46,646 bases of DNA from Gemmatimonadota bacterium. Its GTDB lineage: Bacteria; Gemmatimonadota; Gemmatimonadetes; Longimicrobiales; RSA9. The notes below the pieces were generated by a model. It made no database searches, had not been told where the DNA came from, and worked only from the letters and a program-made list of their open reading frames with translations. Made by a program: the position numbers and the translations under genes. Below are positions 1 through 12,821 of the stretch, piece by piece. The DNA lies in contig SLCC01000106.1 in the NCBI GenBank assembly GCA_007126035.1, positions 1-46,646 on the forward strand, written 5' to 3'. Positions within the stretch are counted from its first letter, which is position 1. Every line of letters starts with the position of its first letter.

Positions 1-2
1 AC

Positions 3-1598
3 GAGCTCCCCTTCAAGCCGCACTCGAGCAACCCGGCGGCGGGCGGCATGAACCACCGGGAGATAGGGCAGGACCTGAACGGCGACGGCTTCGTCACCAT
101 GATGCGGGTCCGGGACCCTGAGGGCGACTACATGATCGACCCGGACGATCCTCGCCTTATGCGGCGGGCGAACCGGGCACGGCAGGAGCGGGGCGAGTAC
201 TCGCTGCACGTCGAGGGTATCGATCCTGCCCAGATGGAGCGGTACCTGGCATCGGGCAGCGATGGCGTGAACTTGAACCGCAACTTCACCCACGACTACC
301 TGTACTACCAGCCCCACGTGGGGGTGCACCAGGTGAGCGAGGCGGAGACCCGGGCGCTGGCGGACTTCGCCTTCACCCACACGAATATCGCCGCCGTTCT
401 CACGTTCAGCCCGTACGACAACCTGCGCTCGCCGCTGCCGGCTAACGCTCCCCGTCCACAGGGCGTCTTCCCCGGGCCACCGAACCAGCCGACGAACCTG
501 CTGCCCCGGGACCGGCCCTACTTCGAGTTCGTCTCCCAGCGGTTCCGTGAGATTACCGGCCTCTCCGGTGGCGGCGAGGACGGGGAGGCAGGCTCCTGGC
601 CACAGTTCGCATACTTCCAGCTCGGCCTGCCGTCGTTCACCACGCCGGTCTGGGGCGTGCCCGACGCAGGCTCCGCGGGACCGGCGGCAGCCGGGCCAGC
701 ACAGCGTGGCGCCGGCAACGTCATCGAGGGGACCTGGGTCATCAACTTCGACGTGGGCGCCGAGGCCGTCGAGGGTTCCCTGGTCATCCGTCGCGAGGGA
801 GAGGGCCTGGTGGTGAGCCTGTCCAGCCCTGGCGGCGCGGCCGAGCTGACGGGTGAGGGGCGGGCCGGCCGCTTCAGCGCCTCCGGCCAGCTGCCCCAGA
901 TCGGGGCCATCACGATCAACGGCACCGTGAGCGGAGACCAGATGACCGGGTCGGCGTCCCTGGGACCAATGGGCTCGGCCTCGTTCACGGGCACCCGCGC
1001 CGGCGGTGGCCGGGTCGCGACGTCGCCGCAGGAACGGGGTCAGAACCGTACTGGCAACACGGCGGACCACCGCTGGCTCGCTCATTTCGACCAGGTGGGG
1101 ATCGACGGGTTCGTCGAGTGGACGGAGGCAGAGCACCCCACGCTGGGCACCGTGGAGGTAGGCGGGTTCGTGCCCAACAGCCGGGTCAACCCGCCCCCAG
1201 CGGAGATCGCGGGACTGGCCGGGTCGCACGCCGAGTTCGCGGTATGGCTCGCCGAGCAGCTACCTGCGGTCAAGGTGGTGGAGACCGCGGTCGAGCCCCG
1301 GGGAGACGGTGTATTCCTGGTCAAGACCACGCTGGAAAACACCGGATACTTCCCCACCAGGCTGGAGATGGGACAGCGGGCCAGGTTCAACAATCCTGTC
1401 TCGGTGAGGCTGCTGCCCCGCTCCGGGGTCACCATCCTGACCGGGAACCCGCAGGAGCAGGTGACCGGGATCGGCGGCATGGGCTCCCGCAGCGTCGTCA
1501 CCTGGCTGGTCCAGGGCGCGCCGGGAACCAGGCTTACCCTCGAGGTAGTCGGCGCAAGGGCCGGCGGCCTACAGTCCTCCACCGTCACTCTGCGATAG
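3..1598 (+). CDS. M14-family carboxypeptidase-like protein, partial at 5' end, probable pseudo-enzyme with inserted beta domain
   Basis: The frame is open from the first bases of the window, so the N-terminus and the HxxE zinc motif lie outside it. The visible part aligns well with the next gene, for example NLNRNF, the SEAETRALADF segment and WTEAEHPTLGTVEVGGF. Two positions that matter in M14 enzymes are changed. The third zinc-ligand His (SWHNAGG next door) is Ser in TFSPYDN (codon 408-410), and the catalytic Glu (NELW next door) is Pro in TTPVW (codon 645-647). Directly after TTPVW lies about 110 residues absent from the paralogue, with a Gly/Ser-rich repetitive beta pattern, before the family resumes. 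The protein is therefore probably a non-catalytic, exported binding or partner protein of the active downstream enzyme, but the missing N-terminus prevents certainty. A C-terminal beta domain follows. The stop lies 12 bases before the next ATG. Confidence 0.85.
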   Translation, partial: ELPFKPHSSNPAAGGMNHREIGQDLNGDGFVTMMRVRDPEGDYMIDPDDPRLMRRANRARQERGEYSLHVEGIDPAQMERYLASGSDGVNLNRNFTHDYLYYQPHVGVHQVSEAETRALADFAFTHTNIAAVLTFSPYDNLRSPLPANAPRPQGVFPGPPNQPTNLLPRDRPYFEFVSQRFREITGLSGGGEDGEAGSWPQFAYFQLGLPSFTTPVWGVPDAGSAGPAAAGPAQRGAGNVIEGTWVINFDVGAEAVEGSLVIRREGEGLVVSLSSPGGAAELTGEGRAGRFSASGQLPQIGAITINGTVSGDQMTGSASLGPMGSASFTGTRAGGGRVATSPQERGQNRTGNTADHRWLAHFDQVGIDGFVEWTEAEHPTLGTVEVGGFVPNSRVNPPPAEIAGLAGSHAEFAVWLAEQLPAVKVVETAVEPRGDGVFLVKTTLENTGYFPTRLEMGQRARFNNPVSVRLLPRSGVTILTGNPQEQVTGIGGMGSRSVVTWLVQGAPGTRLTLEVVGARAGGLQSSTVTLR

Positions 1599-1610
1599 GA
1601 GTTGAACATC

Positions 1611-3437
1611 ATGCATTCCATGATCCGGATCGGCATGACGGCGGGGGCCACGCTGAGCAGGAGCCTGCGGGCGAACCTGGCTCGCCGGGTCCGCGCAGTC
1701 TTCCTGGGTGCCATGGCCATCCTGCTCGTTGCGGGCTCCGCCGGCAGCGTCCAGGCCCAGCCGTTCAACATCCCCACCCAGGACCCGAAGGTGAACATCA
1801 GGTGGGACCGGTATTACAGTTTCGACGAGATGGTGGATGTGATGGGCCGGCTCCAGGCCGCGTATCCCCAGTTCCTGACGCTCGAGAGCATCGGCAAGTC
1901 ATGGGAGGGTCGGGACCTGTGGCTCATGATCGTGAACAACCCCGCCACCGGCCACCACACCGAGAAGGCCGCCTTCTGGGTGGACGGCAACATCCACGGG
2001 AACGAGGTCCAGGGGAGCGAGGTCAGCCTCTACATGATCTGGTTCCTGATGGAGAACTACAACTCCCTGCCCAAGGTGAGGGAGCTTGTAGACACCAGGG
2101 CCTTCTACATCCTGCCGTCCCAGAACCCTGACGGCCGGGAGAACTTCTTCAACGTGGGCGGGCCGTCCCGGACCGGCATGCGCCCCTTCGACAGTGATGG
2201 CGACGGCCGCCCCGACAGCGATCCGCCCGACGACCTCACGGGGAATCGGGAGATCCTCCAGATGCGGAAGTATGTGCCTGGTGAGGGCACCCACATCATC
2301 AGCCCGGTGGACCCGCGGCTCATGGTCCTGGCCCCCCGGGGCCAGCGCGGCGACTACATCATGCTGGGCTCGGAAGGCGTCGATTCCGATGGCGACGGCC
2401 GCAGGAACGAGGACCCGCGGGGCGGCTACGACATGAACCGGGACTGGCCCAGTGACTGGCAGCCGGCCCACATCCAGCGCGGCGCCCACTGGTATCCCTT
2501 GAGCAACCCCGAGACCCGGGCAGTGGCCGACTTCCTCCTGGCCCACCCGAACGTGGCCGGCGCCCAGTCGTGGCACAACGCGGGTGGCATGATCCTGCGG
2601 GGGCCGGGCTCCCGCTACTACCGGGGCGAGGGCGAGTACGGCCGTCGAGACGCGGCCAGCTACGATTACCTGGGCAAGCGCGGCGAGCTCATCCTGCCCT
2701 ACTACCGCTACATGACCATCTGGAAGGACCTGTACACGGTCTTCGGCGGCCAGGTGGACTGGTTCCACGACGGACTGGGCATCTTCACCTTCACCAACGA
2801 GCTGTGGTCCACTCGCCAGCTCTACAACGAGGCGTGGACGGATGACTCGCCCGTGCCCGACGAGATGAGCCGACTCTTCTACAACGACCAGCTGGGCATG
2901 GGCTCCTGGTGGGTGGACTGGGAAGAGTTCGAGCACCCGGAGCTGGGCACCGTCGAGATCGGGGGGTGGTCCAAGTGGTTCGGCCGGACCACGCCACCGT
3001 TCATGCTCCAGGAGCTGCTGCACCGGAACGCCATGTTCGCCTTCTTCCACGCGGACGAGATGCCGCTCCTGGAGATGGACGACCCGCGCGTCGAGCGGAT
3101 CTCGGGCAACACGTTCCGCGTCCGGGCACAGGTCCGGAACAGCCGCGCCATACCCAGTCGCACTGAAGCGGCTGAGGTCAACCGGATCGGCGACCCGGAC
3201 TACTTCCGGATAACCGGGCCCAGGGCCACCATCCAGGCTGGTGGCTTCACCGCCGGCGAGCTGAGGGACCGCCTCGACCTCAACAACGGCGATCCCGCGG
3301 AGGTCGAGGTGATACGGGGCGTGCCCGGGCACGGGTTCGTCGACGTCACCTGGATCGTGACCGGCACCGGTAACGTGACCATCACGTACGAGAGCATGAA
3401 GGGAGGCAGGCTCAGCAGGACGGTTGAGCTGCGGTGA
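1611..3437 (+). CDS. Secreted M14 zinc carboxypeptidase
   Basis: Exported zinc carboxypeptidase expected to remove C-terminal residues from peptides outside the cytoplasm. The ATG at 1611 is preferred over the TTG at 1602 because AGGAG (1597-1601) lies nine bases upstream of it. A long n-region, a hydrophobic stretch and a likely cleavage after SVQA form a signal peptide. Family residues are present: HGNE (H129, E132), the third ligand in SWHNAGG (H322) and the catalytic Glu in NELW (E397). Two acidic DSDGDG loops inserted between the zinc motif and H322 resemble calcium-binding repeats. A C-terminal beta domain (about residues 480-609) follows the catalytic region. It is cotranscribed with the inactive-looking paralogue just upstream and lies ahead of the sigma/anti-sigma/SusCD genes, consistent with feeding peptides to that uptake system. 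Confidence 0.93.
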   Translation: MHSMIRIGMTAGATLSRSLRANLARRVRAVFLGAMAILLVAGSAGSVQAQPFNIPTQDPKVNIRWDRYYSFDEMVDVMGRLQAAYPQFLTLESIGKSWEGRDLWLMIVNNPATGHHTEKAAFWVDGNIHGNEVQGSEVSLYMIWFLMENYNSLPKVRELVDTRAFYILPSQNPDGRENFFNVGGPSRTGMRPFDSDGDGRPDSDPPDDLTGNREILQMRKYVPGEGTHIISPVDPRLMVLAPRGQRGDYIMLGSEGVDSDGDGRRNEDPRGGYDMNRDWPSDWQPAHIQRGAHWYPLSNPETRAVADFLLAHPNVAGAQSWHNAGGMILRGPGSRYYRGEGEYGRRDAASYDYLGKRGELILPYYRYMTIWKDLYTVFGGQVDWFHDGLGIFTFTNELWSTRQLYNEAWTDDSPVPDEMSRLFYNDQLGMGSWWVDWEEFEHPELGTVEIGGWSKWFGRTTPPFMLQELLHRNAMFAFFHADEMPLLEMDDPRVERISGNTFRVRAQVRNSRAIPSRTEAAEVNRIGDPDYFRITGPRATIQAGGFTAGELRDRLDLNNGDPAEVEVIRGVPGHGFVDVTWIVTGTGNVTITYESMKGGRLSRTVELR

Positions 3438-3457
3438 GTTCTGAGCTGTTGGATTCG

Positions 3458-3487
3458 TTGACAGCTGATTATGTGAGGTGATAGCTT
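3458..3487 (+). promoter_or_regulatory. Possible sigma-70-type promoter ahead of the ECF sigma gene
   Basis: A perfect TTGACA at 3458-3463 lies in a locally AT-richer gap between the M14 gene and the sigma factor. Seventeen to eighteen bases on is ATAGCT/TAGCTT, a weak match to a -10 box. The site is about 40 bases upstream of the sigma factor ATG. The -35 is convincing and the -10 is not. Confidence 0.35.
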
Positions 3488-3524
3488 AGCCCACGCTCCA
3501 ACCCACATACCTTGCCCGGACGCC

Positions 3525-4148
3525 ATGACCGTGCGCTCACCCACGGAGGCCATCGCTTTGCCGGAGGACGCCCGGCTACTCGACGGCATCCGGGCATCCG
3601 AGCCGCGAGCCCTGGAAGAGTCCATGCGGCTCTACTGGGGCCCGCTCATGCATTACGCCCGGGCTATCGCTCCCGACAGCGACACTGCCGAGGACGCCGT
3701 GCAGGAGGCGTTTATCCGGCTCTGGTCCCGGCGGCGGCGGTGGACGATGAGCGGTAATCTGCGGGGGCTCCTGTTCCGGGTCGTGCGGAACCTGCTCCTG
3801 AACCAGCGTCGGTCCAGCCAGGCCCGTCAGCGCTGGCTCCAGCACCTGGCGCGTCGCCCCCTGCCCGTGCCTCCTTCGCCAGCGGAGGAATCAGAGGTGC
3901 GGGACCTGGCTGCCGCGGTCGATCGAGCCATCCAGGCCCTGCCCACCCGTCGGCGGGAAGTCTTTGTCCTGGTCCGCAAGTCCGGCCTCAGCTACCAGGA
4001 GGCGGCAGACATCCTCGGTCTCTCCCGGCAGACCGTGGCGAACCAGATGAGCGCAGCCCTGTCCACCCTCCGGCAAGCCCTGGAGCCCTACCTGGAGATG
4101 GAGCAGGGAGATCCCATCCCCTTTCCCCGGGAGCGCCGGACCAGCTGA
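3525..4148 (+). CDS. ECF-family RNA polymerase sigma factor (FecI-like)
   Basis: A 207-residue sigma-70 family protein with only regions 2 and 4. Region 2 contains YARAIAPDSDTAEDAVQEAF and a basic RRRR segment. Region 4 (about residues 135-190) contains ALPTRRREVFVL and the helix-turn-helix LSYQEAADILGLSRQTVANQM. It should direct RNA polymerase to the promoter of the downstream SusC/SusD genes when released by its anti-sigma factor. The neighbouring FecR protein and the STN domain of the SusC receptor complete the usual FecI/FecR/FecA-type relay. The ATG lacks a clear Shine-Dalgarno sequence. A scrap of IS3 transposase now separates it from the anti-sigma gene, although the pair would normally be adjacent. 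Confidence 0.93.
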   Translation: MTVRSPTEAIALPEDARLLDGIRASEPRALEESMRLYWGPLMHYARAIAPDSDTAEDAVQEAFIRLWSRRRRWTMSGNLRGLLFRVVRNLLLNQRRSSQARQRWLQHLARRPLPVPPSPAEESEVRDLAAAVDRAIQALPTRRREVFVLVRKSGLSYQEAADILGLSRQTVANQMSAALSTLRQALEPYLEMEQGDPIPFPRERRTS

Positions 4149-4185
4149 CGGCTCCCCTACCGGCGAGCCGGATGACACGGTTTGG

Positions 4186-4270
4186 CCCCCCCCCCGATAG
4201 TACGCCCTGCAGCCCAGCCGTGTTCTTGATGTAGGTGACGTCTGCCACGAGGCGCTCCTCGCACCAGAGA
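4186..4270 (-). pseudogene. IS3-type transposase scrap next to a C10 tract
   Basis: Read on the minus strand, about 25 codons (near 4275-4201) give WCEERLVADVTYIKNTAGL. This resembles the start of the IS3/IS481 DDE transposase core, whose usual form is W-x-x-D-I/V-T-Y-I, including the first catalytic Asp. Similarity ends within a few codons on each side, and a run of ten C residues (4186-4195) follows. No inverted repeats or remaining transposase can be seen. It is a short relic, and its right edge touches the TTG proposed as the FecR start, so an insertion may have altered the anti-sigma leader. The match is short and made by eye. Confidence 0.5.
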
Positions 4271-4278
4271 ACACGGCT

Positions 4279-5202
4279 TTGGACGACCTGATCACACGCT
4301 TCCTGCGAGGCGAGGCCCGCCCCGGAGAGATCGCCCAGCTCGCCGCCTGGCGTCAGGCTGCCAGTGAGAACGAGCAGCATTTCCGGAGCATGGCCGCGGT
4401 CTGGCGTGCGACCGCACCCGATCACGCACCGCGGCCCACGGCCGCCTCCATCATCCGCCAGGCGGAGGGTCGTCGACCCAGCTTCAGCGTCCGCCGGATG
4501 GCCACCCTCGCCGCCATGCTCGTTCTGGGGCTGGCCATCGGCGAGTTCCGGCCCGGGGCACGATCGCAACTGATGCTCAGCATGACCGAGCTGGTGACCG
4601 GCGCCACGGAGATGGCCACTACCCGGCTGTCGGACGGCACAGTGGTCCGATTGGCGCCAGCTTCCCGTCTCCAGGTCGTGGAGAGCGCAAAGCGCCGCGA
4701 GGTTTGGCTGGACGGCAAAGCATTCTTCGCGGTAGAAGCCAGCGAGCGTGACCCCTTCGTTGTCCGGACCCGTGCGGGCGAGGCCCAGGTGCTGGGGACC
4801 CGCTTTCAGGTGGAGGTCAAGGACGAGGACTTTCGCGTGATCGTGGTGGAGGGACGGGTGGACGTCGGCGCTGGAGGCGCCCGTGTCTCCGTGGGCGGCG
4901 GCCAGGCAGCCTACAGCTCCGCCGGCGTCCCGCCCAGCGTCGTCGAGACCCCCAACGTGGCGGGGCTCGTGGACTGGATGGGCGCAGTCCTGATCTTTGA
5001 GTCCACACCCCTGTATCGAGTGGCCCAGGAAGTGGAGCGCCGCTTCGATATCCAGGTTTCTATAGCAGACCCGGCCCTCCGCAATCGAACCATCACGGCA
5101 TGGTTCGGTGAGGAGGAGGTCGAGCCAGTGCTCTCGGTGATCTGCCGCATCGCGGATGTGCGCTGTGTAATCGACCGCGATGTCGTCACTATCGCTCCCT
5201 GA
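4279..5202 (+). CDS. FecR-family anti-sigma factor with C-terminal DUF4974-like domain
   Basis: Inner-membrane regulator that holds the ECF sigma factor and senses the loaded outer-membrane receptor through its periplasmic part. The N-terminal roughly 70 residues form the cytoplasmic anti-sigma helices (ITRFLRGEA, then WRQAASENEQHF). One membrane segment follows near residues 74-92 (MATLAAMLVLGLAIG). The FecR domain comes next (TTRLSDGTVVRLAPASRL, then VLGTRFQVEV), and last a C-terminal domain (FESTPLYRVAQEVERRF) typical of FecR proteins paired with SusC. No ATG or GTG is available: the in-frame TAG at 4198 leaves TTG 4279 as the only plausible start, with no good ribosome-binding site. The start is therefore uncertain and may have been altered by the adjacent IS3 scrap. 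Confidence 0.88.
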   Translation: MDDLITRFLRGEARPGEIAQLAAWRQAASENEQHFRSMAAVWRATAPDHAPRPTAASIIRQAEGRRPSFSVRRMATLAAMLVLGLAIGEFRPGARSQLMLSMTELVTGATEMATTRLSDGTVVRLAPASRLQVVESAKRREVWLDGKAFFAVEASERDPFVVRTRAGEAQVLGTRFQVEVKDEDFRVIVVEGRVDVGAGGARVSVGGGQAAYSSAGVPPSVVETPNVAGLVDWMGAVLIFESTPLYRVAQEVERRFDIQVSIADPALRNRTITAWFGEEEVEPVLSVICRIADVRCVIDRDVVTIAP

Positions 5203-5270
5203 GGCTCATGTATAGACGGTTCCAGGTTTCCCTCTGGGTCCAGTCTGCTGTTCCACTCCAAGGAGGACGC

Positions 5271-8200
5271 ATGATCTCCCACAGTCTCCGAGCCCTTGCC
5301 GCACTGGTGGTGTTGGTGTGTGCCGCACCACCGGCCGACGCTCAGCAACTGGCCAAAGCCGCCGAACGGGCGGCGAATGCCGCCACCGCGGCGACGCTGG
5401 AGAGCCAGGCGCACCTTACCATCACCGCTGGCACGCTGCACCAGGCGTTGGAAGCGCTGCACCTGAGCTCTGGCGCACGTATCGCGTACAGCCCCAGCCT
5501 CCTGCCGCCAGTGGACGTCAGTTGCGAGTGTGCGGATCTCACAGTGGGGGAGGCCCTGGCCACGATCCTGGACGGAACAGGCTTCCGCCATCTGGTCTCG
5601 GGAACGCGGATCCTGATCGTGTCGGAATCGGACGACTCGGCGGTCCTGTCATGGAGCGCGGTCGACCACGGATACGAGCCCGGCCCGATCACGGCGCCTA
5701 CCGCCCCGGCCGCGCTCAACTTCTCGGTCCGGTTGGCCGGCGTCCAGCAGGCGGGAACCATCATCGGCCGCGTGGTGGATGCCAGTACCCAGCAGCCGCT
5801 GACCTCAGCGGAGGTCTCTGTGGTGGGCATTGGCCGGGGCGCCATCACCGATGCCCAGGGCCGCTACAGGATCGCCGACGTGGCGGCGGGGACCCACGAG
5901 GTGAGGGTGACCCTGCTTGGCTATTCCGAGGGCCGCCGCCAGGTGACGATCGACCCCGGCGCCACCGTCACGGCCAACTTCCAGCTCTACGCCTCCGCCA
6001 TCGGGCTCCCTGAGATCGTGGTCACCGGCGTGGCCGGCGCCACGGAGCGGACCCGTGTCCCGTTCGTCGTGGACCTGGTCCGCGCCGACGACATGCCTGT
6101 GCCGACCATTTCCGGCGTGGGCACCATGATCCAGGGCAAGGTGGCGGGCGTTCAGGTGGTGAGCGCCAGCGGGATGCCAGGCGACGAGTCGACCATCCTG
6201 CTGCGTGGCCCCACCAGCATCATGGGCTCTTCCGATCCCCTCATCATCGTGGATGGGATCATGCTCTCCAGCGGGACCGTGGACCTGGAGTCCCTGGACA
6301 TCGAGAGCGTGGAGGTGGTGAAGGGTGCCGCGGCGTCGTCCCTCTACGGTTCCCGTGCCGCCAGTGGCGTCATCCAGATCACCACCCGTCGCGGCCGGGG
6401 CCTCACCGACGGTCAGACGCGGTTTACCGCCCGGACGGAATTCGGCCAGAGCCAGCTGGCGCGGCGGATCAACGTGGCCCGCTACCACCCCTTCAGACTC
6501 AACGCCGGTGGCACCGCATTCGTCGATGCCGACGGGAACGAGGTGGACTATGCCAACGCGATCCTGGACGGGCCGAACCGGAGCCAGGTCTTCCAGGACA
6601 AGGCGTTCCCCATGCCCACCTACGACCACCTGGACCGGTTCTTCACTCATGGCAGGTCCATCACCAACTACGTCTCTGCCGATGGCCGGGCTGGCGACAT
6701 CAACTTCCACGCGTCGTTCGGCAACCTGCGGGAACAGGGCGTGATCCTGGGCCACGACGGCTTCCGCCGCCAGAACGCCCGTCTCAACCTGGACTACGGC
6801 CTGGGCCGGCAGCTGTCCGTCGGGCTGACCAGCTCGTTCTCCCGGTCGCACCAGGACGACGTGAACATGGAGAGCCGCACCAGCCCCTTCGGGCGACTCT
6901 CATTCATGTCTCCCGTGGCGGACCTGCTGGAGCGGGACCCTGAGTCCGGCCGCATCCGGGTGGACCCGGATCCGCGCGGCTCCGCCCTCAACCCCCTCTA
7001 CCAGGTCTTCTACAACGACCGCCACAACGAGCGGCAGCGGATCCTGGCAGGTGCGTCCGTGCGCTTCGCACCCCTGGACTGGCTCGATGTAGAAGGGAAC
7101 CTAAGCTTCGACCGCACCGACCGGAGCCGCACTAACTACACGCCCAAGGGATACGAGACCAGCGGGACCGGCGTGAGTGATGGATCCCTCTACCTCAGTA
7201 ATTACCAGATCGAGGGGATCAACAGCAGCATCACCGCTGGGATCAACCGCAGTTTCGGCGACCTGAACGCCCGGATTCGAGCCCGTTACCTGCACGAGGA
7301 CGAGGAGTATAGCTTCTTCTCCGCCTCCGGGTCCAATTTTCTGGTGGAGGACCTGGCCAATCTCAACGTGACCAGCGATGGCTTTTCCGTCTCGTCGTCA
7401 GCCCAGACTGTACGGTCGGAGGGTTATTTCCTGATCTCAGACTTCGACTTCCGGGACCGCTACATCGCGTCGTTCCTGGTCCGCCGCGACGGCTCCTCCC
7501 TCTTCGGTCCCGACGCCCGCTGGCAGACGTACTACCGGGCCAGTGGTGCGTACCGCATGGCCCAGGAGGCTTGGTGGCCCGTGGAAGGTATCGATGAGTT
7601 CCGGCTCCACTACTCCGTCGGGACCGCCGGCGGCCGACCGGGCTTCGCCGCCCAGTATGAGACGTACACCATCACGGGCGGGTCGCTCCGGCCGCTGACC
7701 CTGGGCAACCGTCTGCTCCGGCCGGAGTTCTCCACCGAGCACGAGGCGGGGCTGAGGGTGGGCGCCCTCGGTCGCGTGGCCCTCGAGCTGACCAATGCCC
7801 GGACTCGCAACGAGAACCAGCTCATCCAGATGCCGCTGCGCTCGTACGCCGGGTTCAGCAGCCAGTGGCGCAACGCCGGCACCATCGAGAGCAACAGTTG
7901 GGAGTTGAGCCTCGAGGCGTCGCTGCTGGAGCGCCACGACATGTCCTGGTTCGCTCGCTTCAACTTCGACCGGACCCGTCAGTCCATCACCCACTGGCCC
8001 CGCTCCGAGCTGAGGTACGGTCCCTTCAGCTCCTTCTACTACCGTGAGGGTGAGGCGCTGGGCAGCTTCTATGGCCACCAGTGGGCCGCCAGTTGCGAGG
8101 ACATCCCGCTCCTCCCCTGCAACAGCTCGGAGTTCCAGGTCAACGACGACGGCTACCTGGTCTGGGTCGGCCAGGGCAACAGCTGGACCGACGGCCTGTC

Positions 8201-10485: not shown

Positions 10486-11466
10486 ATGATACACAACGTC
10501 GTGAGGTCCGGACTCGGCATTCTCGCTCTCTCCCTCATCCTGGTTGGCTGCGGCGCCCCGGGGGCGGCCCTGCAGACGCCGGCTCCGAATGCCACGGCCG
10601 AGACGCCAGCTCCGCAGGGCACCCTGGAGTCACCGGCCCCGCACCATGGCACCGTGCAGGGAGCCCTCCTGATCGTAGGCGGCGGCCCGCGCCCCGCCGA
10701 GATCATGGATCGGTTCATCGAGCTGGCGGGCGGGGCCGGTCACGCCAGGATCGCCGTGGTCCCCATGGCCAGCGGCAACCCGGCGGCGGCCGGGGAGAGT
10801 CTGGTCGAGGAGATGCTGGGGCTGGGCGCCGCCCACGCCTTCAGCCTGAACCTGACCCGGGAAGAGGCGCTCGAAGAGACGGCGGCCCGCCGGCTGGACG
10901 GCGTCACTGGTGTCTGGTTCTCCGGCGGCGTGCAGAGCCGTCATACCGCCGCCCTCAAGGACACGCCTGTGGAGGAGAAGCTGCACCAGCTGTACCGCGA
11001 CGGCGCGGTGCTGGGCGGTACCTCTGCGGGGGCGGCCATCATGTCCCCCCTCATGATCACCGGCGGCGAGCGTCGGCCGGGTGGCGACCGCCCCCGGGAC
11101 GAGGCGTGGATCACCATCGACCGTGACAACGTGGTGACGTCGCCGGGGTTCGGCTTCCTGCCTGGCGCCATCGTGGACCAGCACTTCGTGCGACGGAAGC
11201 GGCACAACCGCCTAATGAGCCTGGTCTTCGAGCACCCAGACCAGATCGGTGTGGGGATCGACGAGGCCACGGCCCTCCAGGTGGACCCCGACGGTCGCTG
11301 GCACGTGGTGGGCTCCAGCGTCGTCGTGATCTACGACGCTCGGTCCGCGGCTACAGCGCCCGAGGATGTGGGGGCTCTGGGCGCCGCTGGCGTGCGCATG
11401 CATGTGCTGCCCGGAGGGGCCGTCTTCGACCCCGGCACCGGGCAGGCCTTCCTGCCGGCGTCATGA
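10486..11466 (+). CDS. Cyanophycinase-like S51-family serine peptidase, lipoprotein
   Basis: Predicted exported hydrolase of the cyanophycinase family, which releases beta-Asp-Arg dipeptides from cyanophycin. A lipoprotein signal ends at LILVGC (Cys 22). A short linker with three TPAP/SPAP repeats (about residues 30-52) precedes the catalytic domain. Family motifs are visible: LLIVGGG, the nucleophile elbow GGTSAGAAIMSP, PGAIVDQHF with the conserved His, and GVGIDEATAL. The usual GG-D/N-Q motif appears as GGVQ. Cytoplasmic cyanophycinases lack an export signal, so this resembles the extracellular type. Position right after SusC/SusD suggests that its products could be imported, which is an inference. 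The stop overlaps the next gene's start (ATGA). Confidence 0.87.
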   Translation: MIHNVVRSGLGILALSLILVGCGAPGAALQTPAPNATAETPAPQGTLESPAPHHGTVQGALLIVGGGPRPAEIMDRFIELAGGAGHARIAVVPMASGNPAAAGESLVEEMLGLGAAHAFSLNLTREEALEETAARRLDGVTGVWFSGGVQSRHTAALKDTPVEEKLHQLYRDGAVLGGTSAGAAIMSPLMITGGERRPGGDRPRDEAWITIDRDNVVTSPGFGFLPGAIVDQHFVRRKRHNRLMSLVFEHPDQIGVGIDEATALQVDPDGRWHVVGSSVVVIYDARSAATAPEDVGALGAAGVRMHVLPGGAVFDPGTGQAFLPAS

Positions 11467-12821
11467 GGGTCCTGGCTCTGGCGGGTCTCCTGCCGCTCGC
11501 CGCTTGCATGGCCACGGCGGGAGGCGATGGAGCCGCCACCGCGCCGTTCCCCGATGGCAGCTACGGCCTGATCAACGACCTGGTCGTCACCACCCGACCC
11601 GCCGAGCCCGCCGAGGTCGGTTACGACGGGTTCGTGGGCACCTTCCGGATCGGCGACGAGAGGGAGCACCCTGTATCCCTCTTCCGCCCCGGCGTCTGGG
11701 TGGTACCGGAGCTGGACCTGGAGCTGTCGGCGGAGGGCAGGGAGGAAGATCGTCTGCTGCGCCTGACCCGCTATCAGGAGACCGTCCTCCTGGCGCCCGC
11801 TGGACCCGGCAACGAGGTCGATTACGCAGGCTGGGACCGCCGCGCGGTCATCGCCCACCTGGTGCCCAGACTGATGATCGCGTTCAATGTGCCCGGTGTG
11901 TCCGTGGCCCTGGTCGAGGAGGGCGAGGTCCGTTGGCTCGGCCAGCACGGTGTGAAGGTGGCGGGTGGCGAGGACCGGGTGGATGCGTCCACGATCTTCG
12001 AGGCCGCGTCCATGTCCAAGCCGGCCTACGGGTACGCCGTGCTGGGCCTGGCCCAGGACGGGATCCTGGACCTGGACCGGTCCCTGGTGGAGTACCTGGG
12101 TGCCGACTACCTGGAGGGCGAGGAGCTGCATCGCACCATCACGGCACGGATGGTCCTGTCCCACACCACTGGCTTCCCGAACTGGCGGCGGGGCGGCGAG
12201 CTCGAGGTCCGCTTCCTCCCCGGCTCCAGGATCGGGTACTCGGGTGAGGGCTTCCTCTTCCTCCAGACTGCGGTCGAGGCTGTTACAGGATTGCCTACGG
12301 AGAGATTCGCGCAGGAGCGGCTGCTACGGCCCCTGGGCATGACGGCCAGCAGTTACGAGTGGCAGGAGCGTTACGATGACCGGTACGCCACTGGACATTC
12401 CCCTGAGGGCCGGCCGCGTGAATGGGCACCCTACCAGTCCGCCAACACCGCGTACACTCTGTACACTACGCCGGCCGACTATGCCCGCCTACTGGTGGAG
12501 ATGCTGCGACCGAATGCTTCCGGTCCCTACTCCCTTTCCCCGGAGTGGCGGAGGACCATGCTGACATCCCAGGTCCAAGCGGAGGAGCGACAGCCCGTGG
12601 GCAGGCGGGGCGAGCATCCCGGCGCAACCGTCCACTTCGTGCTGGGCTGGCGGATGGATCGGCTGTCGGCTGGCCCCCGCTACTATCACAGCGGCTCGAA
12701 CAGCACCGGCTTCCAGTGCTATTCCGAGTTCGACCCGGCCACGGGAAGCGGGATCGTCATCATGACGAACAGCTCCAGCGGCAGTCCACTCTGGCGCGCG
12801 TTGCTCCGTGAGATCGGCTGA
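11463..12821 (+). CDS. Serine hydrolase of the beta-lactamase/penicillin-binding-protein class C family, lipoprotein
   Basis: Exported serine hydrolase; family members include class C beta-lactamases, D-aminopeptidases and esterases. The start overlaps the preceding stop by four bases, indicating translational coupling. A short lipoprotein signal ends LPLAAC (Cys 15). About residues 40-120 form an extra N-terminal domain of unknown role. The catalytic domain then shows SMSK (the SxxK nucleophile motif), YSG in the place of the YxN motif, and HSGSN in the place of KTG/HxG. It could trim peptides alongside the upstream peptidase or act on D-amino-acid substrates; sequence alone does not decide. 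Nothing suggests antibiotic resistance specifically. Confidence 0.85.
   Translation: MRVLALAGLLPLAACMATAGGDGAATAPFPDGSYGLINDLVVTTRPAEPAEVGYDGFVGTFRIGDEREHPVSLFRPGVWVVPELDLELSAEGREEDRLLRLTRYQETVLLAPAGPGNEVDYAGWDRRAVIAHLVPRLMIAFNVPGVSVALVEEGEVRWLGQHGVKVAGGEDRVDASTIFEAASMSKPAYGYAVLGLAQDGILDLDRSLVEYLGADYLEGEELHRTITARMVLSHTTGFPNWRRGGELEVRFLPGSRIGYSGEGFLFLQTAVEAVTGLPTERFAQERLLRPLGMTASSYEWQERYDDRYATGHSPEGRPREWAPYQSANTAYTLYTTPADYARLLVEMLRPNASGPYSLSPEWRRTMLTSQVQAEERQPVGRRGEHPGATVHFVLGWRMDRLSAGPRYYHSGSNSTGFQCYSEFDPATGSGIVIMTNSSSGSPLWRALLREIG

Follow-up and report, generated by a model that had tools for sequence, protein, structure and literature searches.

A predicted M14 pseudopeptidase gene conserved directly upstream of the gene of an intact M14 metallocarboxypeptidase

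The first two genes of the analyzed stretch of 46,646 nucleotides (the window), which is a complete contig of a Gemmatimonadota bacterium, code for two proteins of the peptidase family M14. The second one, ORF B, has an intact active site and is an M14 metallocarboxypeptidase. The first one, ORF A, has lost the catalytic residues of the family and, judging from its sequence, is most likely an M14 pseudopeptidase, in which case every such locus would contain one M14 gene that does not code for an enzyme. The A proteins share a common ancestor, are kept under purifying selection, are encoded side by side with B orthologues, and have evolved in parallel with them. We think that A is probably an obligate noncatalytic partner of B and that it belongs to a bacterial family of secreted M14 pseudopeptidases.

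Genes and active-site residues of A and B

As the window comprises the whole contig G000:C185, the 5′ end of ORF A is cut off by the contig start. A search of the same assembly showed that the first 39 residues of this truncated frame are 100% identical to the end of contig G000:C117, and the last 121 bases of C117 are identical to the first 121 bases of the window and are present at those two contig ends only in the whole genome. Such an exact and unique identity is typical of neighboring contigs of one assembly graph. The N-terminal 157 residues of A are encoded on C117 with the initial Met at L034:13871, and the joined protein has a length of 688 residues. It begins with the signal-peptide-like sequence MRHSYLW, which suggests that A is exported. 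Just upstream of A and on the same strand there is a gamma-glutamyltranspeptidase gene (L034:11826-13676 on C117, Pfam E 2.4e-158), which ends about 195 bp 5′ of the start of A. On the other side the likely start codon of B, the ATG at position 1611, is found 12 nt past the stop codon of A, and this spacing of the genes points to coupled translation of A and B. The features of both genes are collected in Table 1.

Table 1. Positions of the features of ORF A and ORF B in the window
Feature	Position	Strand	Basis or remark
Assembly overlap with the 3′ end of contig G000:C117 (24339-24459)	1..121	.	Exact identity
ORF A, the last 531 residues (of 688) of the predicted M14 pseudopeptidase	3..1598	+	Exact unique 121-bp end overlap, frame continuous
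Asn-Arg pair (CPA N144/R145) kept in A	276..281	+	Alignment
Ser replacing the third zinc ligand (CPA H196) in A	408..410	+	Aligned to B His 2574-2576
Asp-Asn, A-only, 3-4 residues past position 196; Gly-Gly in B	417..422	+	Alignment
Pro replacing the catalytic Glu (CPA E270) in A	645..647	+	Aligned to B Glu 2799-2801
Gly/Ala/Pro-rich linker of A receiving the inserted domain	648..716	+	Alignment
Inserted beta domain of A, about 97 residues	717..1007	+	8 antiparallel strands in the L052 model
End of A, comprising the final M14 helix and a beta-rich C-terminal domain, also in B	1008..1595	+	
AGGAG, Shine-Dalgarno-like, overlapping the stop codon of A	1597..1601	+	9 nt 5′ of the B ATG at 1611
ORF B, intact M14 metallocarboxypeptidase	1602..3437	+	Pfam PF00246, E 8.5e-45
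B zinc ligands His (1995-1997) and Glu (2004-2006), HGNE	1995..2006	+	
B third zinc ligand His	2574..2576	+	Alignment
B catalytic Glu, FTNELW	2799..2801	+	Alignment

The assignment of A to family M14 is based on sequence profiles as well as on the predicted fold. The full-length homologue L052 matches Peptidase_M14 (PF00246) with 104.6 bits at a cut-off of 21.6 bits, and for the protein of the window the N-terminal match on C117 has 89.7 bits and the cut part in the window, taken alone, 17.8 bits. Altogether 16 of 17 A members gave a match at E ≤ 1. When the single-chain AlphaFold model of L052 (mean pLDDT 79) was compared with the PDB using Foldseek, carboxypeptidase T was found with an E-value of 9.9e-14 and a target-normalised TM score of 0.61. 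The best structural matches of A are carboxypeptidase T and carboxypeptidase A of family M14, which are also found among the top matches of B, both in structure and in sequence. Both are active enzymes encoded by a single gene, and their catalytic residues are missing from A.

The residues were counted in a family-wide alignment of 61 A rows (including one duplicate locus) and 62 B rows (including two other active M14 proteins); the numbering is that of carboxypeptidase A (CPA). In full-length A all five alignable catalytic residues are changed whereas all five, including the zinc ligands H69, E72, and H196, are kept in B. A preliminary description of the window had already read the third zinc ligand of A as Ser and the catalytic Glu as Pro. 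Both replacements are borne out by the alignment with B and can be extended to the whole family: position 196 is His in 62/62 B rows and never in A (Gly 49, Ser 10, Thr 2), and position 270 is Glu in 62/62 B rows and in no A row (Pro 24, Gln 15, Arg 14, the rest Ser, Thr, or Ile). It had been left open in this description whether the HxxE motif is intact further upstream. This is not the case, as the part of the gene on C117 reads EGNH (ANLEGNHLIG) where B has GNIHGNEVQG, and the first two zinc ligands are gone from A as well. Position 69, His throughout the 62 B rows, is Glu in 38 A rows, Ser in 8, Tyr in 4, Phe in 3, His in 3, and Asp in 2, with Ala, Trp, and Gln in the remaining ones. Position 72, Glu throughout B and never in A, is His in 47 and Gln in 11 A rows, i.e., His or Gln in 58/61. 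In the column of Arg127, where the alignment is less certain, Arg is present in 61/62 B rows versus 16/61 A rows, being replaced in 45/61. As these substitutions are found repeatedly in a clade of some 60 proteins and every residue is kept in the neighboring B proteins, they reflect more than chance. Three deeper A proteins (L157, L158, and L167) have HGPH at the HxxE site, that is, His69 is kept and His is found at position 72, while in their relatives position 69 is occupied by Phe, Tyr, Trp, or Ser.

Part of the pocket is retained in A, with Asn144 in 47/61, Arg145 in 52/61, and Arg71 in 58/61 rows. In active relatives the C-terminal carboxylate of the substrate is bound by Asn144 and Arg145. 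In addition there are residues which are nearly invariant and specific to A, namely Arg142 (58/61), Asp296 (60/61), and Asn297 (61/61), the latter two being Gly-Gly in B.

The domain inserted into A had been described as following exactly at the position of the catalytic Glu. The domain itself is present. Its start, however, lies 23 codons past the Pro codon, and the insertion site is a low-complexity linker rich in Gly, Ala, and Pro, as seen in the alignment with the A protein of genome G010. Among the nine closest A proteins the domain is found in only five (the window, L041, L042, L052, and L089) and is absent from four (L036, L091, L092, and L093), with five changes on the tree. L089 with the domain and L092 without it are 95% identical in the shared part, and the homologues without the domain have the same active-site residues as those with it. 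In the L052 model the domain comprises residues 389-478 and consists of eight antiparallel strands (block pLDDT 85-92); it is flanked by the strand that follows the pseudo-active site and by the final helix. An insertion at the active site, and with it the domain as an active-site feature, is ruled out by the distance of 23 residues from the Pro codon and by its absence from close homologues. An amidohydrolase-like protein carries the same domain at its C-terminus (G000:C92:8357-8656), and further copies are found at G000:C190:11048-11350 and in other proteins of the order. Neither a Pfam family at E ≤ 1 nor a credible solved structural relative was found for it. The inserted domain is a dispensable module, which is also carried by unrelated proteins, and does not account for the loss of activity in A.

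Pairing and common descent of A and B

Homologues of A are found in MAGs labelled as Gemmatimonadota, Bacteroidota, Planctomycetota, Acidobacteriota, and unclassified bacteria, labels which may be wrong, and also in the cultured isolate Mongoliitalea lutea (locus L054). The E-values and pairings were mostly obtained from draft MAGs. With a cut-off of at least 640 bits, the next M14 group having about 400 bits or less, B orthologues were detected in 29 of the 154 genomes of the order of the window, and in 29/29 genomes they are located directly downstream of an A gene. The wider phylum contributes 20 more loci, of which 19 are A-B pairs and one is an A gene at a contig end. The gap between A and B is usually within about 25 nt, and some of the genes overlap by 4 nt. 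L050 is the sole pair with an ORF in between (716 aa, L050:7765-9915). The remaining loci with A only or B only are cut by contig ends or partial, except the distant active M14 proteins L113 and L114.

The flanks of the other pairs are unrelated and code for an antiporter subunit, M20 peptidase, phosphodiesterase, RecQ helicase, Vps10-like, PAP2, Usp, FtsX, and ThuA proteins. As the flanking genes differ between the loci, A and B form a conserved unit, and the ECF sigma factor and SusCD genes behind the pair of the window are incidental. The SusCD context, to which the pair had been related in the preliminary description, is no conserved neighbor of A and B, and a functional link to SusCD or to a single peptide-uptake locus is ruled out by these flanks. 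The suggestion that the dead copy serves the live one is strongly supported with respect to the conserved, near-obligate gene pair, but those parts of it which relied on the insertion and on SusCD failed. At 10486-12821, behind the SusCD genes, the window has two ORFs with a 4-nt overlap. One codes for a peptidase of the S51 (cyanophycinase) type (Pfam E 4e-15) and the other for a serine hydrolase of the beta-lactamase family (E 1.9e-48).

For the phylogenetic analysis trees with 86 and 117 rows were calculated, from which the key columns had been left out. In these trees A forms one clade of 58 homologues on one side of a single branch with a support of 100. The branching of A into subclades mirrors that of B, and the patristic distances of A and B are correlated with r = 0.948 over 54 pairs, a value which includes the shared history of the organisms; the branches of A are about 1.5 times longer than those of B in the distances of the 54 pairs. 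The dN/dS values of A range from 0.056 to 0.165 versus 0.012 to 0.118 for B in the same six close pairs, and the reading frames are open throughout the A clade. The single, fully supported clade, the mirrored trees, and the low dN/dS allow us to conclude that the active site was lost once and early and that A has been kept since then. Three marks of an M14 pseudopeptidase, namely the loss of the catalytic residues, a conserved fold, and purifying selection, are thus found in A.

Possible roles of A

In the partner reading, which we favor, one duplication would have given rise to A and B. In A the general base and the ability to bind zinc would then have been lost and a remodelled conserved pocket gained, and both genes would from then on have been inherited and moved as one unit. 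Both proteins would be made by coupled translation, exported, and assembled into a heteromer in which A holds the substrate or shapes B. It is a physical contact and a division of labor between A and B that we infer here. Against this reading stand the faster evolution of A, the loss of Arg145 in part of the deeper A clade, and the ORF between the two genes of L050. A more specific proposal, which we put forward tentatively as a real possibility, is a novel bacterial two-subunit carboxypeptidase that has spread across phyla and in which the dead M14 subunit captures substrate C-termini and presents them to the live one, or licenses it. The rebuilt, conserved pocket of the dead subunit would comprise His/Gln72, Gly/Ser196, and the Asp-Asn motif.

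Alternatively, A could be a stand-alone peptide- or wall-binding protein which acts in the same operon and pathway as B without a complex, for example by capturing the C-terminal carboxylates of the peptides of B. Gene pairing by itself indicates co-use and not contact, and Asn144, Arg145, and Arg71 show that the pocket has largely kept the part which binds the carboxylate. Arg145, however, is absent from several deeper A proteins, which makes a single substrate-binding role throughout the family doubtful, and the near-strict 1:1 pairing, with no B lacking an A in the order, together with the parallel trees exceeds the usual loose link within a pathway. We regard a stand-alone binder as unlikely. 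A dedicated inhibitor, pro-segment, or chaperone, which is made together with B, fills its cleft or aids its folding until export, and is then discarded, would also be expected to have its gene immediately in front of B with a short or overlapping junction, as is the case for A. A simple inhibitor, however, does not need what A has, namely full size with the whole M14 fold, the C-terminal domain, and a conserved pocket of its own, and such a role appears quite improbable to us.

It is very improbable that A is still an enzyme with a metal or acid-base site rebuilt from Glu69/Asp144, His72, and the Asp-Asn motif. The near-invariance of His/Gln at position 72 and of Asp-Asn would agree with such a site, and so would the combination of Ser69 with Asp144 in 7/7 cases among the first 40 homologues, as if a carboxylate was kept by compensation. 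Yet position 69 is elsewhere also Phe, Tyr, Trp, or Ala, and there position 144 is Asn or Ser, so that there is no constant carboxylate or ligand set in the A family; the equivalent of Glu270 is gone as well. The link between 69 and 144 goes back to two or three independent origins, with which a sign test is unable to reach significance. A metal site rebuilt via covariation of these two positions, suggestive in the first 40 homologues, has been rejected in view of these few independent changes and of Phe, Tyr, and Trp at position 69 in the deeper clade. Finally, a decaying copy without function could explain that every catalytic residue is gone from A and that its rate of evolution is about 1.5 times that of B. 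Against this stand dN/dS values of 0.06-0.17 in the six close pairs, the open frames throughout the clade, and the presence in several phyla; with its selection and phylum breadth the gene can hardly be in decay, and we have rejected this explanation.

The M14 pseudopeptidases named in a review, AEBP1/ACLP, CPXM1, CPXM2, CPD domain III, and Ecm14, are all eukaryotic, from animals or fungi (PMC11266112). They belong to the same family as A, likewise have zinc ligands, Arg127/Arg145 and/or Glu270 replaced and the fold kept, and have a noncatalytic role (PMC11266112), as is predicted for A. In CPD dead and live domains are joined in one chain (PMC11266112), whereas A is encoded by a separate gene beside its active sister. 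His69 is kept in all of the eukaryotic proteins and Glu72 in all but CPD-III (PMC11266112, Table 2). A, having lost both, is therefore altered more thoroughly, and it differs from them also in being bacterial and in its ExxH/DN pocket. We found no match to a discoidin domain in A and no previous report of an M14 pseudopeptidase from bacteria in the open-licence literature. Among other peptidases, the mitochondrial processing peptidase (M16) has an inactive alpha subunit which serves the active beta subunit. This inactive/active sister pair may be seen as an analogue of how A and B could work, although its fold and family are unrelated.

The roles of these eukaryotic M14 pseudopeptidases are hard to study. 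A bacterial pair of a dead and a live protein, strictly 1:1 and small enough for joint cloning, would make the service of a dead peptidase to its active sister directly testable. For genome annotation it should be kept in mind that one M14 gene in each such locus is predicted not to be an enzyme. Apart from A and B there is a third group of M14 paralogues, represented by L039 (G000:C209, ORF 3103-5343) and L040 (G001:C144, ORF 3749-5863), in which HxxE (HSGE) and the catalytic Glu are kept. The column of the third zinc ligand is occupied by Asp and position 144 by His in this group, and its metal site is possibly altered.
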